The notes under the pieces were generated by a model. That model did no database searches. It had not been told where the DNA came from and worked only from the letters and a program-made list of their open reading frames with translations. The position numbers and the translations under genes were made by a program. DNA of 10,928 nucleotides, taken from contig PALK01000017.1 in NCBI GenBank assembly GCA_002710765.1, forward strand, positions 29,679 through 40,606, given 5' to 3'. Below are positions 6,070 to 10,928 of this stretch, piece after piece; within the stretch, counting starts at the first letter, position 1; every line of letters begins with the position of its first letter. This DNA comes from Rickettsiales bacterium. GTDB taxonomy: Bacteria > Pseudomonadota > Alphaproteobacteria > Methylaequorales > Methylaequoraceae.

Positions 6070-6573
6070 ATGAAGATTGCAGTATGTGGAAAGATGGCCA
6101 GTGGGAAAACAACCTTAGCAGATTGGTTTGTAGAACACCATGATTTCCAAAAGATTTCTTTGGCTGCTAAAGTTAAATCTATTGCTGCTGATTTGTTCGG
6201 TATGGTTCACAAAGATCGTAGATTGCTACAACAGATTGGTATGAAGATGAGAGAAATCAGGGAAGATGTCTGGATTGATTATTTGATTAACCATGAAGGC
6301 GATAACTTAATTGTAGATGATGTTAGATTTATTAACGAGGCTGAGAAACTTAAGGCCGCTGGATGGACTATTGTGAGAATCAACATTGATGATGAGTTGC
6401 AGAAAGAAAGGTTGAAGATTACTTATCCTGATGATTGGGAAGTGCACTGGAACAGTCGGGGAGATTCTTCCGAAGCCCAAGTAGATTTAATTGCCACTAC
6501 TTTATTGGATTTAGAGATTAAGGCTGTAAACCAAGAATGGCCTGAACAAGAACTACTGGGTTTGTTGAGTTAG
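6070..6573 (+). CDS. Deoxynucleoside monophosphate kinase, T4 gp1-like
   Basis: A 167-residue P-loop kinase that should phosphorylate dNMPs to dNDPs to supply replication. It has Walker A GKMASGKTT at 7-15, a helical substrate-binding part (SLAAKVKSIAADLF at 30-43), the Walker B-like IVDDVRFINEAE at 81-92 with the Asp-Asp-x-Arg pattern typical of phage dNMP kinases and relatives, and a C-terminal region with GDSSEAQVD at 131-139. Its length is at the short end for the family (T4 gp1 is 241 residues). It is second in an operon after the helicase. The last 21 nt overlap the end of the convergent Nudix gene. Adenylate-kinase-like activity cannot be ruled out from sequence alone. Confidence 0.8.
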   Translation: MKIAVCGKMASGKTTLADWFVEHHDFQKISLAAKVKSIAADLFGMVHKDRRLLQQIGMKMREIREDVWIDYLINHEGDNLIVDDVRFINEAEKLKAAGWTIVRINIDDELQKERLKITYPDDWEVHWNSRGDSSEAQVDLIATTLLDLEIKAVNQEWPEQELLGLLS

Positions 6574-7863
6574 ATTTAACGCTGCTTCCATGCCGGGGTG
6601 GAGATTAGGAACTTGTTTCCATGCATCTAAAGTTGCCCAACGCCAATCATCCCATTCCCATTTGAACTCATTAATTTCGGGTTCAAACTCGGTGTCTACA
6701 TAAAACAAATAAGTGCGGTGAGAACCATCATCCCAAATAATTCTATGATTCCATCTTTTAATAGTGGCTACAGGTAAACCACTTTCTTCATGGATTTCAC
6801 GAACCACTGCGTCATACGGTGTTTCGCCTGCGTCCAAAAATCCAGAAATACCTGACCAAGTGTTAGGAGATAAAACTAATTGTGATCTTAATTGTAGACC
6901 AATGCGTCCTGCAGGAGAATAAAAGATACCTGTAGTAGAACGATACTTATCATCCCACTCTACATCAATCCATTCTTCCTGTTGTAAACGAGGTGGTTTA
7001 GTGGTGGTCCACTCTATGTCGTCCCATCGCTCGGCACCAAACAAATCTCTCAGTCTATATCTCTCATTAAAATTATAAAAAGCAAAATTAATGGAGATAG
7101 GGAACTCATCTCTGCGATTGTCTAAATTATCGGGAGAACCCACTTTCCAACCATATCTTTTATCAAACATCTCTTGGTTCATGGCTTCGCTATTAAACAA
7201 ACCATAGCCATGACGTTCTGTAAAATATTTACCAGACTCAATAGCCTTGCGATAAGAGGTCGGGTAGGCTACTACTTCTTCATGACATTGTTCTAATGCT
7301 TGTTGGCTAAAACCGGGAAATCCTCGTCTGCGAGCCACCATAGGATCGAACCACACAGGTTCACCATGTATATTATAACCGATATTACGAGGGTCAATTA
7401 AATCCCGAACCCACCAACCAGAGTCGTATAGATAGGTTACCATGGCCTCATAAATAGATTGTTCTTCCAATTGGTTGCCTTTATCTTTAAGATTACGACC
7501 ACAAAATTGATTTTGGGCTATGCAGGGCAACCGTTCCATATTGACGATTCCATATTCAGTGCCTGCAGGGAAGGTAGTTCTTACTCGTCTCCGAGCCTCA
7601 GAATCGGTAGTAGTATAACTAAGTATATTTAAAATGTTGGTGTTCATGATGCCACGAAACGTTTGAAAGACAAAAGGAAGACCCGGGGTCCGGATTCCTT
7701 GGTCTTGGTGATTCATAATTTGAATAAACATATTATATTGTTGTAGATTGCAGGGATTACTAAGATTCATAATCTTAACGACGCTACCATCTGGACCATT
7801 GATTTCAGTTTCATCTTCATAAACAAAGCCATAATCGCCATAGCCAACAAGGTTACCGAACAC
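6553..7863 (-). CDS. Kinase-like domain fused to a C-terminal Nudix hydrolase
   Basis: About 436 residues from GTG 7863 (438 from the overlapping GTG 7869; numbering below uses 7869). The N-terminal half has protein-kinase-fold marks: Gly-rich loop VGYGDYGFVY at 8-17, VVKIM with Lys32, hinge-like YGIVNMERLP at 106-115, catalytic-loop VRDLIDPRNIG at 154-164 (Asp156, Asn162), and WFDP with Asp175 in the place of DFG. No clear helix-C Glu is visible. The C-terminal part (about 310-430) is a Nudix domain with a perfect box, GFLDAGETP then REIHEESGL (Gly343, Glu349, Arg357, Glu358, Glu361, Glu362), so it should hydrolyse a nucleoside-diphosphate-linked substrate, such as a modified nucleotide, ADP-ribose derivative or cap. 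The two parts are split by LFGAER at 276-281, a motif also found in the upstream giant protein. SD GGAGGA is 6 nt from GTG 7863. It is translationally coupled to the upstream gene. Confidence 0.8.
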   Translation of the reverse strand: MFGNLVGYGDYGFVYEDETEINGPDGSVVKIMNLSNPCNLQQYNMFIQIMNHQDQGIRTPGLPFVFQTFRGIMNTNILNILSYTTTDSEARRRVRTTFPAGTEYGIVNMERLPCIAQNQFCGRNLKDKGNQLEEQSIYEAMVTYLYDSGWWVRDLIDPRNIGYNIHGEPVWFDPMVARRRGFPGFSQQALEQCHEEVVAYPTSYRKAIESGKYFTERHGYGLFNSEAMNQEMFDKRYGWKVGSPDNLDNRRDEFPISINFAFYNFNERYRLRDLFGAERWDDIEWTTTKPPRLQQEEWIDVEWDDKYRSTTGIFYSPAGRIGLQLRSQLVLSPNTWSGISGFLDAGETPYDAVVREIHEESGLPVATIKRWNHRIIWDDGSHRTYLFYVDTEFEPEINEFKWEWDDWRWATLDAWKQVPNLHPGMEAALNLTQQTQ

Positions 7864-7865
7864 GG

Positions 7866-10800
7866 TCACTCCTCCTTGGCAACTATAGTTATTTGGTCTA
7901 ACGCCTTTTTCGTCCGTGCTAATTGATTAATTAGTTTACTGGCTTGACGACGATTAAGATCTGGATGTGGGTCACCACCTAATCGCTTAATATAATTACG
8001 TTGTTTCTCAGTAGCCAAGTCATACCATGCATTGAACTCACGAGTTTCTGCTTCCATGGACTGATTCTTGTTACGAGATATTAACCATTTGTTATCTTGC
8101 CAATGCACTAAAGTATATTTACCTTGATACTTGCCATCATTAACATAAAACACCCATTTTTTAGGACTGTAAGAAACAGTTTGGAAGGTAGATTTATTAT
8201 CTAATGATACTTTACCAGCACCATAACTGCCTTCGGGAATGTCTCCATCAAAATCTAACCATGACATATTATGGTCAGAAGTGGCAATAGCCAAATGACG
8301 TTTATCTGTCGGCATTCCTTTAGGAATACTCCACGATTTCAAAACACCATCTCGTTCTAACCTCAGATCATAATGCAATCCTGCTCGGTGGGCATCATGT
8401 CGTTGCACTCCAAATACTTTACTATCTTTAGATTCGGCACCGAATAAACTACCTAATCCTTCAAACACGAATGGTTTTTCATAGTTGTAATGGGCCAGAT
8501 TAATAGCCATAGGGGTTTCCAGTGAAATCATACCCTCAGCAACCTGATCAATACCATCAAAGTATCCGTTTTCCTGTTCTCTTTTATTAAAAACTTCTTC
8601 TATCAAACCTTCAGATTTCTTTTCGTCCATCTTTTTCTGAAGTTCTCTAAGTTTTTCCATTTCTGGACCTCGGCCAAACATAATATCAGGGATATTAGAT
8701 TTAGTAGTCATGATTAACATCTGATAATCTCTCCAAGTGCGGTTAGAGTTTTCCCAAGCGGCTATGGCCTCTGGACCTGCCATCATACCAGCCAATGCTT
8801 CTGCAGTTCCACATTCCGAACAGATTTCGGTTTCGTTATCATAACGGGCTAATGCGCCGGGGTAAGCACCCGGGGTTTGGTTGTTGGGAATATAACTATA
8901 ACAGATTGGACAGATGGGTCCAAGTTCTGATTCTGCACCTAACGCTGTAGGTCCGAAACTATATTTTAAGGAATCGGTAGTATAATCTCCAGTGATTGCC
9001 GAAGAAGTCATCAACTCTTGGGTAGTATATTCATTTAACATTTGTGTAGGTTGGTAAGGTGCCTCAAACTCAGCACGGTAATCGGCCACTACATTCTGAA
9101 TATCTTTACTATATGAGGCTCTTTGCTTGCCAGCCTTGGTTGCAGCACGTTTCTGACGAGTAGCCTTGGCATACAATCCCTTTTTCTTGAGTGCTTTGAC
9201 AGCACCAGCAGGGAAATAAGGTTCACCAGTTACTGAGGATTTTTTACCCGAGGCTGTGCCCCACTTTTGTTTACTCCAATTGCTGAGATCTTGTTGCTTG
9301 GAAGTTTTCTTACCTTTGTAGGCTCGCAATCCTCTACGCTCACAAGCAGCCTCATACTTTTGTTTCAATAATTGTGATTTACGAGCAGACCATTGTCCTG
9401 CTTTCGTGCCATGAGTAGCCTTGGCTTTGATTTGTTTCTTAAGTTTACGACGAATCTTGGCTTGTTCCTTGCCATAGGTAGCCTCATAATTATCTTCGGC
9501 ATCAAAGGAAGCACGGCGACCAAATATATCTAACCACTTCTGTTCCATAAGTCTAACACAATCATTACATAACCACCATGCACCATATTCAGGGTCATCT
9601 GAATCTCGGGTGACTCCATAATCTTTCAAACCAGCATAACCACGTTGGTCTTTTTCAGCACCTGAACGCAAACACTGATAACATTTAACACCCATATTGA
9701 GTTTACCTGTATCATCACGATGGTAGTCAATAGATTTATCTTCTGCACTCAAAGATTCTTGATTGGCCATTTGGAGGGCTAAACAATCAATACCTCTTGC
9801 CAGCAGTTGGGCATCCGTGAGGTTTTTCAGTTCGGGATAAGTTCGTAAATCATTGAGATAATCCATATAGTCCAACCTATCTTCAGCACCTAAATTAATA
9901 GGCAAACAATCATAACAATAAGTTCCTGCCTGAATGGTAGTCAAACCTTCTTGGGTCTGACATTCACAACACTCTCTTTTATCTTCAGCCTTTTTAGTAG
10001 TTTTCTTTTTAGATTTAGAGAAGCCTTGTCTTTGGGCTGGGTCTTTGTAGGGTCTACCCAAGGCTGTAAATATATCTGCTTCGGTAGCACCTGCTAAGTA
10101 TTGGTCGGTATTACGATCAAACAATCCATACTCACTTAACTTAAGTCCCTTGCGTTTCGCCATCCATCTATATTTAATGTTAAAATCAGCAGGTCCTGTG
10201 AAATACAAGATGGTAGCACCCCAAGCCGCCGGGGTGGTGACCTTAAAGTCTACTTTTTCGCCATCTATAATTACTTGGGCTTTATTTTCGCCTACCCAAT
10301 TAACTCCTTCGTTGGCTGGTAACATATTAGGAAGAGTGTATCCCTCTTTAGGAATAATAACGAAATCAATGTCTCCAATCATCTGTGCACCACGACGGTA
10401 AGACCCACAAGCCATCATTTTATCTACCATGGGACGAAGGTGGTTTTCTACTTTGGTAACAATTTTATCTGCTTTGGCACGAGGAAACTTAACTTTAGTC
10501 TGTTTCGGGGCAGGAGCCTCAAACTCTTCTTGGAATCCAGAATCAAAACCTTTCGGTTGCAGACAGTTATCCCGTGCCATACGCACGGCATCAGGGTCAT
10601 TACCTGTAAACTCACCATATTTATGTCGCACTAATAAATCTTTACTGTAATACGGATCGGCTAATCGTGGACCATAGATACCAATCTCGTAAACAACTTT
10701 TCTTCCTAAAATTAAGCCACACATTTGTGCTAAAGCCAAATTAAAATTATTTTGACGTGATAAAATCTCTTCCTTGCCATTAGGCATTCGTAAATAAACT

Positions 10801-10928
10801 TCGTATGTAGAATCACGATGATACATAGATTCAGCATTGAGACCATAATTAAACTTGGCTTGGTCTTCTAAAAAGTTCCCAGTCACAGCATTAGAATACA
10901 TTAAATCTCTAACAGACCAGTCTGTCAG
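7866..10928 (-). CDS. Multidomain DNA-end-repair polyprotein: PolX + zinc ribbons + phosphoesterase (5' end cut)
   Basis: At least 1,011 residues; the frame is still open at the right edge (LTDWSVRDL precedes Met 10901), so the true start may lie outside. Numbering is from that Met. Residues 131-291 are a family-X DNA polymerase palm and thumb: GSYRRG 166-171, GDID 176-179 and VDF 217-219 supply the three catalytic Asp, then YFTGPADFN and SEYGLF 256-261; the usual N-terminal lyase/HhH part is absent. Three paired-CxxC segments (311-332, 407-448, 664-697) look like zinc ribbons. Residues 498-605 (GQWSARKSQ, then NWSKQKWGT) match a basic domain common in phage and giant-virus proteins (DUF5872-like, from memory). 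Residues 826-945 are a LigD-type 3'-phosphoesterase with His835, His843, Asp845, Arg847, His877 and IPEGSYGAG. The end (963-995) is a small ATEKQ..YI..LGGDP helical domain. [FL]xAE motifs separate the modules. It probably repairs or trims DNA ends. Confidence 0.85.
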   Translation of the reverse strand: MTDWSVRDLMYSNAVTGNFLEDQAKFNYGLNAESMYHRDSTYEVYLRMPNGKEEILSRQNNFNLALAQMCGLILGRKVVYEIGIYGPRLADPYYSKDLLVRHKYGEFTGNDPDAVRMARDNCLQPKGFDSGFQEEFEAPAPKQTKVKFPRAKADKIVTKVENHLRPMVDKMMACGSYRRGAQMIGDIDFVIIPKEGYTLPNMLPANEGVNWVGENKAQVIIDGEKVDFKVTTPAAWGATILYFTGPADFNIKYRWMAKRKGLKLSEYGLFDRNTDQYLAGATEADIFTALGRPYKDPAQRQGFSKSKKKTTKKAEDKRECCECQTQEGLTTIQAGTYCYDCLPINLGAEDRLDYMDYLNDLRTYPELKNLTDAQLLARGIDCLALQMANQESLSAEDKSIDYHRDDTGKLNMGVKCYQCLRSGAEKDQRGYAGLKDYGVTRDSDDPEYGAWWLCNDCVRLMEQKWLDIFGRRASFDAEDNYEATYGKEQAKIRRKLKKQIKAKATHGTKAGQWSARKSQLLKQKYEAACERRGLRAYKGKKTSKQQDLSNWSKQKWGTASGKKSSVTGEPYFPAGAVKALKKKGLYAKATRQKRAATKAGKQRASYSKDIQNVVADYRAEFEAPYQPTQMLNEYTTQELMTSSAITGDYTTDSLKYSFGPTALGAESELGPICPICYSYIPNNQTPGAYPGALARYDNETEICSECGTAEALAGMMAGPEAIAAWENSNRTWRDYQMLIMTTKSNIPDIMFGRGPEMEKLRELQKKMDEKKSEGLIEEVFNKREQENGYFDGIDQVAEGMISLETPMAINLAHYNYEKPFVFEGLGSLFGAESKDSKVFGVQRHDAHRAGLHYDLRLERDGVLKSWSIPKGMPTDKRHLAIATSDHNMSWLDFDGDIPEGSYGAGKVSLDNKSTFQTVSYSPKKWVFYVNDGKYQGKYTLVHWQDNKWLISRNKNQSMEAETREFNAWYDLATEKQRNYIKRLGGDPHPDLNRRQASKLINQLARTKKALDQITIVAKEE
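7870..7875 (-). promoter_or_regulatory. Shine-Dalgarno that decides the Nudix-fusion start
   Basis: GGAGGA (minus strand) abuts the GTG at 7869 with no spacer but lies an ideal 6 nt before the in-frame GTG at 7863, so the latter is the likelier start. Confidence 0.55.
8067..8426 (-). other. LigD-type 3'-phosphoesterase domain
   Basis: Residues 826-945 match the PE domain that removes 3'-phosphate and 3'-ribonucleotide ends in bacterial and archaeal end joining. Metal and phosphate ligands expected from Pseudomonas LigD are present: His835, His843, Asp845, Arg847, His877. The spacing between the first two His is 8 rather than the 6 I recall for LigD. It follows directly after an FGAES junction and ends just before MEAET. 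Confidence 0.85.
9087..9410 (-). other. Basic GQWSARKSQ / KQKWGT domain (DUF5872-like)
   Basis: Residues about 498-605 of the large protein: very Lys/Arg rich, with GQWSARKSQLL at 502-512, a Trp pair at NWSKQKWGT (541-549), PYFPAGA and a run of ALKKKGLYAKATRQKRA type. The same pattern recurs, as I remember it, in hypothetical proteins of tailed phages and giant viruses. Nucleic-acid binding is plausible from charge alone. Confidence 0.5.
10029..10511 (-). other. Family-X DNA polymerase domain
   Basis: Palm and thumb of a PolX enzyme within the large protein (residues 131-291). The nucleotidyl-transfer triad Asp177, Asp179 and Asp218 is present, with the thumb signature FTGPADFN...KGLKLSEYGLF. 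No helix-hairpin-helix or dRP-lyase domain is seen in front of it. It is preceded by an FEAP junction (127-130) and followed by a Lys-rich linker. Confidence 0.85.

Follow-up and report, generated by a model that had tools for sequence, protein, structure and literature searches.

The polyprotein genes in a 10,928-nucleotide stretch of DNA (hereafter the window) encode modules whose boundaries coincide with the dipeptide Ala-Glu (AE), a pair that is kept while the codons specifying it and the sequences beside it change and that is enriched, as [FLM]xAE, in mosaic and late-block proteins. The window covers positions 29679-40606 of contig PALK01000017.1 (hereafter C16), a 136,324-base contig in a 1.63-Mb metagenome-assembled genome (MAG) of a Rickettsiales bacterium. 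From these sequence patterns, we consider it probable that the enzyme polyproteins are matured by cleavage next to AE during particle assembly.

The two proteins concerned are A62, a polyprotein containing PolX and phosphoesterase domains, and the adjacent fusion A61. A first-pass annotation had described the former as a protein of 1011 residues; its motifs were right, but the protein was incomplete. Because the window end cuts the gene, whose complete open reading frame (ORF; C16:37544-41521) encodes 1325 residues, residue 1 of the 1011-residue frame, the numbering of which we retain, is residue 315 of the full ORF. The closest database protein, P0001, is 99% identical and 1326 residues long. 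Our recount agreed with that annotation in placing [FLM]xAE at residues 21, 337, 384, 466, 654, 820, and 949 and LFGAER at residues 276-281 of the 438-residue fusion, in finding F, L, or M two residues before the Ala in 7 of the 12 AE pairs of the large protein, and in finding the Cas4-like, helicase, phosphatase, and dNMP kinase proteins without the motif. Shuffling the 1011-residue part 5000 times gave a mean of 0.8 and a maximum of 6 motifs, against the observed 7. The expected enrichment over shuffled proteins extended to the whole of C16 and to three relatives, contigs B, C, and D (C16 being contig A, and gene names carrying the contig letter). Among the 169 ORFs of C16, called mechanically as the longest nonoverlapping frames with ATG/GTG/TTG starts, 61 motifs were observed compared with 26.9 ± 5.1 and a maximum of 45 in 300 shuffles, and the relatives showed 76 vs. 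35.7 (B), 89 vs. 36.8 (C), and 79 vs. 27.7 (D). On C16, no comparison word in which [FLM]x was followed by AD, AQ, AK, AR, AS, GE, SE, VE, LE, TE, DE, or AP was enriched, while AE alone (257 vs. 195.5) and [IVYW]xAE (50 vs. 34.4) were raised, both less than [FLM]xAE; [FLM]xSE was also raised in contig C (63 vs. 42.5) and [FLM]xAD in contig D (36 vs. 22.2). Controls treated identically showed no enrichment, with 15 vs. 19.3 in 145 ORFs taken from stretches of the MAG's remaining contigs and 8 vs. 7.3 in a Pelagibacter phage. The motif is real, and the observation holds more strongly than first stated.

One part of the initial description did not survive. FEAP had been listed as a variant of the site, but in homologues FEAP opens the module that follows an AE (LNAE/FEAPAPKQ, KKAE/FEA), and on C16 neither [FLM]xAP (21 vs. 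20.7 expected) nor FxAP (8 vs. 5.4) is enriched. Despite this lack of overall enrichment, FNAP or FEAP is present within the first 13 residues of g7 (L002:3075-3659), g9 (L002:4572-5015), and g25 (L002:15680-16564).

A62 has 247 homologues at E ≤ 0.001, and all homologue figures rest on 120 of them. These proteins are mosaics that differ by exchange, insertion, and rearrangement of modules. The order of PolX and the phosphoesterase varies among them, and matches to Cu/Zn SOD, GNAT, Nudix, HTH, and, weakly, PPPDE also occur, together with ART-like and HExxH modules recognized by eye. We defined a breakpoint as a position where the local homology of two proteins stops while both chains go on, and compared the 120 proteins and three contig proteins; contexts were de-duplicated by local sequence, and related proteins are not independent. 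Right-hand breakpoints fell within two residues of an AE in 574 of 1284 distinct cases (random mean 59, maximum 78 in 200 draws), 235 of them exactly at the Glu compared with 11.7 at random, and left-hand breakpoints in 377 of 1159 distinct cases (random mean 53, maximum 75), the commonest left-hand start being the Ala of AE. None of AD, AQ, GE, KE, AK, LE, DE, and VE showed a comparable coincidence. As homology breaks cluster at AE, the Ala-Glu pair is what unrelated neighbors share. A further test took in every protein of the four contigs except the main polyproteins (six names, chosen by us). Here, 29 of 56 right ends lay within two residues of an AE, where random positions gave a mean of 3.3 and a maximum of 9, and the left ends were not significant (5 of 42 vs. 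2.7 at random, maximum 7). The Cu/Zn-SOD-like protein, identified by homology to PF00080 proteins, is a separate gene in C16 (A133, L007:1269-1883) and contig D and a polyprotein module in contig C and many homologues.

For each AE pair of the window protein, we then compared 18-residue flanks in 123 proteins, giving positions as those of the Ala and counting AE or SE as kept. Many different sequences followed LGAE (339; 27 distinct followers, pair kept in 49 of 50), YRAE (610; 17, 35 of 35), LGAE (656; 17, 29 of 33), KKAE (305; 12, 17 of 18), LSAE (386; 11, 13 of 18), and MEAE (951; 7, 8 of 8), and 46 distinct leaders preceded FDAE (468; kept in 84 of 90). At LNAE (23), the left flank was kept and the right one different in 10 of 123 proteins, with the pair kept in all 10 and seven distinct followers, two of which (SKYFN/SKYFM) may be divergence. 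The right flank of FGAE (822) occurred with a different left flank in 14 proteins, the pair being kept in all 14; because 10 of these left flanks are still SLFG/DLFG-like over the six residues before AE, this is the weakest junction, with about four true left swaps and two right ones. AE 415 showed no swap in this comparison, AE 700 showed divergence within its module only (AE kept in 17 of 33), and AE 788 was ambiguous, with three different left sides and the pair kept in two. By our reading, 9 of the 12 AE pairs would be swap junctions, two of them lacking F/L/M; as KKAE (303-306) and YRAE (608-611) are clear junctions too, F/L/M before the Ala is best read as a preference and not a rule. 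All seven [FLM]xAE of the large protein read as joints, in keeping with their proposed location between modules, and the breakpoint tests and flank comparison both bear out the suggestion that the motif is conserved while its neighbors vary. None of the seven falls inside a Pfam match of the window protein. In an AlphaFold model of the 1011-residue protein, based on an alignment of mosaics, all seven lie in stretches with a predicted local distance difference test score (pLDDT) below 50, but so do 692 of the 1011 residues (mean pLDDT 43.7).

The enrichment is concentrated in the polyproteins and in what we call the late block, a conserved gene run that includes an ATPase, the strongly conserved paralogues A112 and A113, and numerous small proteins in which hydrophobic stretches are seen by eye; its borders and the core gene sets were chosen by us. 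On C16, the motif count is 8 vs. 1.3 for A61 and A62 together, 15 vs. 2.6 for six further mosaics, and 28 vs. 10.1 for another 55 genes in the block A96-A158, the last value being reached in 0 of 300 shuffles, whereas it is 1 vs. 3.2 for 12 core replication, transcription, and enzyme genes and 7 vs. 8.9 for 93 others. The 55-gene set also omits A109, A139, and A155; A139, with two motifs, belongs to none of the five sets. With mosaics included, the late blocks of the four contigs are enriched 2.7- to 4.7-fold (A, 43 vs. 12.8; B, 42 vs. 12.9; C, 32 vs. 12.0; D, 48 vs. 10.3), while the core sets show no significant enrichment (A, 1 vs. 3.4; B, 5 vs. 4.2; C, 8 vs. 4.3; D, 2 vs. 3.3) and the remaining genes, which include further mosaics, have 17 vs. 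10.9 (A), 29 vs. 18.6 (B), 49 vs. 20.3 (C), and 29 vs. 13.6 (D). Two nonmosaic late proteins carry the motif at a fixed position, A148 as F[A/S]AE in four of four contigs and A136 as FEAE in three of four; A130, counted among the mosaics, has [M/Y]GAES in three of three.

We propose that the polyprotein is a chain of interchangeable modules with enzymatic or DNA-binding functions (kinase-like, PolX, zinc ribbons, DUF5872-like, LigD-type phosphoesterase, and a C-terminal module) that would be joined at a protease recognition site with the consensus [M/F/Y/L]-[G/S/D/N]-A-E-[S/T/D]. A protease encoded by the element would cut beside Ala-Glu at particle assembly of a large archaeal-type DNA virus or virus-like element, most likely after the Glu by analogy with the A-X-E/S site of SPN3US, and the same cutting would take place in other late proteins. 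The freed enzymes would be packaged, travel with the genome, and act early in infection. As the site would work in any context, modules could be gained, lost, and reordered at it. Cleavage, the bond cut, packaging in particles, and early action are steps that we infer.

The motif might instead be a docking or packaging tag to which a capsid or core protein binds so as to collect the enzyme modules, with no cutting at all; its excess in late proteins and its single copy per module would look identical on that view. Such a tag should remain with its module at the end of a chain, but AE is not overrepresented at the ends of the 120 homologues, the last 12 and first 12 residues holding 6 each vs. 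11.7 expected and the last 20 and first 20 holding 21 and 7 vs. 20.3, some homologues being contig-cut fragments. In P0010, where a further module comes after the usual last one, the latter has also acquired YDAE, but P0009 and P0011 show no such gain. Because chain ends carry AE no more than its density predicts, we regard a tag as unlikely.

Another account makes the seam a DNA word around GCTGAA, at which exchange takes place and of which Ala-Glu is merely the translation. GCTGAA is indeed favored at junction-like sites, defined by a pattern of our choice (68 of 138 vs. 290 of 1016 elsewhere, P = 1.9e-6), but all eight Ala-Glu codon pairs are used there and 124 of the 138 12-mers are distinct. 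The motif is, moreover, enriched and positionally conserved in nonmosaic late proteins despite changing codons, the A148 site having four different Ala-Glu codon pairs in four contigs. The residues around AE are also nonrandom: among 212 AE pairs in 24 mosaic proteins, again chosen by us, M, F, and Y are raised two residues before the Ala (4.6-, 3.6-, and 2.1-fold), G and S one residue before it (2.0- and 2.3-fold), and S, T, and D after the Glu (2.4-, 2.6-, and 1.7-fold), with F raised 3.7-fold at the position that follows. Selection on the peptide appears the simplest account, and DNA homology may play some role in exchange; a recombination word as the origin of the motif seems improbable.

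Cleavage could also be real but happen in the newly infected cell, through a host or delivered protease. HExxH modules are present in P0011 and C208, and processing after delivery is one option proposed by Iyer et al. 2017 (PMC5512222). No HExxH is present in A62, and the sites are found in many late proteins besides the enzyme polyproteins, a distribution that maturation at assembly fits better; we hold this later timing to be quite improbable. A chance or compositional artifact of Ala/Glu-rich helices, which the excess of AE itself on C16 and matches in probable coiled coil such as the C-terminal part of A148 might suggest, is scarcely credible in view of the unenriched controls and the coincidence of AE with homology breakpoints.

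For the enzyme that would cut the polyprotein at assembly, our leading candidate, which the sequences suggest only tentatively, is A63 (C16:41532-42368), an MPN/JAMM-like protein encoded directly upstream of A62 and outside the window. In its family, E36, H86, H88, and S103 are present in 49 of 49 rows and D106 in 48 of 49, forming the Glu, HxH, SxxD set, with E36 taken as the catalytic Glu by its position at the first strand. A search of PDB sequences with the family gave nothing meaningful, and relatives came from fold comparison alone: the two Foldseek matches at E ≤ 0.001, like most VIA rows, correspond to entries that contain MPN-domain subunits. Of 120 A63 homologues, 51 have [FLM]xAE within their final 40 residues, and none has it in the first 215. 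The JAMM fold is familiar from deubiquitination. Its predicted MPN-like fold and E...HxH...SxxD residues liken A63 to JAMM/MPN+ metallopeptidases (Rpn11, CSN5, BRCC36, and archaeal JAMM1), whereas it differs from them in having a probable transmembrane helix and no Pfam match up to E 10; its H-to-S spacing is presumably longer than in the solved archaeal JAMM enzymes. Our second-choice candidate is A142 (L007:10178-11404), a HEIGH zincin-like protein with no Pfam match that adjoins the MoxR-like AAA protein A143 (L007:11440-15969). The pair is present in two of the three relatives and zincins of this type are encoded by B84 and C136, with no HExxH among the ORFs of contig D. A pattern scan for a Ulp1-like cysteine protease gave nothing convincing by eye. 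No Pfam or PHROG match to a T4- or phiKZ-type prohead protease (gp21/gp175/gp245, assemblin fold) was found in the ∼49 of 169 C16 ORFs scanned, nor did these ORFs yield a recognizable protease homologue, portal, or HK97 capsid protein, the only low-E terminase-type match being that of a HerA-like ATPase to a TerL-labeled PHROG (phrog_2666, 3.6e-17).

Virion proteins of T4 and phiKZ have maturation sites for a prohead protease, and packaged ejection proteins are known from these phages. The putative sites described here would resemble those of T4, phiKZ, and SPN3US in being short, degenerate, and Glu-ending, with Ser favored next as in SPN3US, and in occurring in several late proteins per genome. 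In SPN3US, the gp245 motif A-X-E/S has Glu at P1 and Ser at P1', and the protease cuts off its own C-terminal propeptide (PMC10052503), to which [FLM]xAE in the tail of the A63 family may be likened. Phage maturation differs in mostly removing N-terminal propeptides, whereas here swappable enzyme modules would be separated. The second parallel is with polyvalent proteins, giant multidomain mobile-element proteins of mosaic structure that include Pol-beta-type nucleotidyltransferase and ART domains and are predicted to be delivered with DNA and processed; a zincin-like metallopeptidase is present in about 36% of them and is not obligatory (PMC5512222). A62 is similar in that at least two functionally different domains (PolX, LigD-type phosphoesterase, DUF5872-like) share one mobile-element chain that is mosaic between relatives. 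The internal zincin is the likely processor in polyvalent proteins, whereas A62 lacks HExxH and only some homologues have it, and most joints here carry one motif, whereas a shared junction motif was not met for polyvalent proteins in the available parts of the source. By these analogies, we rate the A62 system as one that would combine polyvalent-protein-like enzyme cassettes with prohead-type maturation sites.

C16 is very probably misbinned in the bacterial MAG, because its GC content is 41.5%, compared with 26.5% for eight stretches from the other contigs, and because it carries the only PolD DP2 match (4.2e-108) of the MAG (68% complete), a family for which, out of 14 control genomes, three gave a match, all of them archaeal. 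It also encodes TFB, the HerA-like ATPase (PF01935 2.3e-6), and a weakly MCM-like gene (E 0.0095), and has no tRNA and no Rfam match. We read this uncultured marine contig as a probable virus, or virus-like element, of archaeal type, and its host as probably an archaeon. Neither the polyprotein nor the ATPase occurs in the MAG family's 31 other genomes, and class-wide, PolX matches of 32-35% were found in 5 of 384 other genomes searched. Searches of viral contigs for related loci with the polyprotein or its alignment gave nothing, nor did the ATPase sequence alone, and the polyprotein found one remote PolX, in a Bathyarchaeota MAG; relatives B, C, and D were obtained from IMG/VR via a family alignment of the ATPase. 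The family of the ATPase A139 (L007:5166-6380) comprises 368 homologous proteins in a clustered database, on contigs of up to 170 kb, yet a two-pattern scan retrieved no more than three contigs from IMG/VR. Elements of this family seem to be widespread but under-recognized, and in the open-license literature, judged by title and start of abstract, we found no paper on them or on a shared AE junction motif.

Among known large marine archaeal double-stranded DNA viruses, the magroviruses (Aoguangviridae) and the Satyavativiridae of Poseidoniales have HK97, terminase, and prohead protease modules and genomes of 87-100 kb; Aoguangviridae are also described as having PolB, TFB, and MCM, the latter two recalling the TFB and weakly MCM-like gene of C16. 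The present elements differ in their PolD large subunit, HerA-like ATPase, and contigs of 123-166 kb. The paralogues A112 (L006:6097-6729) and A113 (L006:6773-7258) share their C-terminal half, are 60-80% identical between contigs, and are candidates for capsid proteins; as PDB profile searches with them and with A148 gave no relative, we claim no capsid protein. A161 and A162 (L008:11550-13144) are Asp/Asn/Gly-rich repeat proteins of DNDGIPD type whose matched parts are 79-91% identical across otherwise divergent contigs. At 1860-2957, the window encodes a 365-residue protein without a family match in which an acidic Asp/Asn/Gly-rich stretch precedes a C-terminal hydrophobic stretch, resembling an anchored surface protein.

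The features of A62 and A61 are listed below; the kinase-like part, zinc ribbons, ART-like modules, and membrane helices were assigned by eye. The basic DUF5872-like region has counterparts, at 59-62% identity, in small hypothetical genes from three Pelagibacter phages.

Features of the polyprotein A62 and the fusion A61 in window coordinates; a slash marks the putative joint
Feature	Positions	Strand	Evidence or remark
A62 (g62) polyprotein gene, 3' 1020 codons	7866..10928	-	gene continues upstream beyond window
LNAE/S junction, AE at 23-24	10830..10841	-	flank comparison
PolX palm, PF14792	10341..10484	-	1.5e-07
PolX thumb, PF14791	10026..10211	-	3.9e-19
KKAE/D junction after PolX, without F/L/M, residues 303-306	9984..9995	-	flank comparison
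LGAE/D junction after zinc ribbon (by eye)	9882..9893	-	flank comparison
LSAE/D junction	9741..9752	-	flank comparison
FDAE/D junction preceding DUF5872-like module	9495..9506	-	flank comparison
Basic DUF5872-like module	9225..9446	-	PF19197 4e-05, 24.6 bits (cut-off 27.5, not reached); phrog_14910 1e-12 at 534-609
YRAE/F junction, without F/L/M, residues 608-611	9069..9080	-	flank comparison
LGAE/S junction preceding zinc ribbon (by eye)	8931..8942	-	flank comparison
FGAE/S junction preceding phosphoesterase	8433..8444	-	flank comparison
LigD-type 3'-phosphoesterase, PF13298	8106..8405	-	5.2e-24
MEAE/T junction after phosphoesterase	8046..8057	-	flank comparison
A61, 438-residue fusion of N-terminal kinase-like part (by eye) and Nudix	6553..7869	-	PF00293 1.4e-12, residues 314-426
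LFGAER, putative site joining kinase-like part and Nudix in A61	7027..7044	-	motif at 276-281

In its fullest form, our proposal is that large archaeal DNA viruses of an as yet undescribed lineage package cassettes of host-modifying and repair enzymes in polyprotein form, and that a membrane-anchored JAMM-type metalloprotease cuts these and other virion proteins at a universal [MFYL]xAE site, which is also the seam at which modules are rapidly shuffled; as a whole, we regard this as a rather doubtful conjecture. If cleavage is true, a single short motif would allow the virus to acquire or lose the enzymes it delivers, cassette by cassette, which would explain the mosaic architecture and predict the mature fragments. 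The motif could then also be used to pick out packaged proteins in marine elements that lack annotation, and virion maturation would take place in a lineage without a recognized prohead protease, possibly by a JAMM enzyme. Each junction is a concrete prediction open to test.

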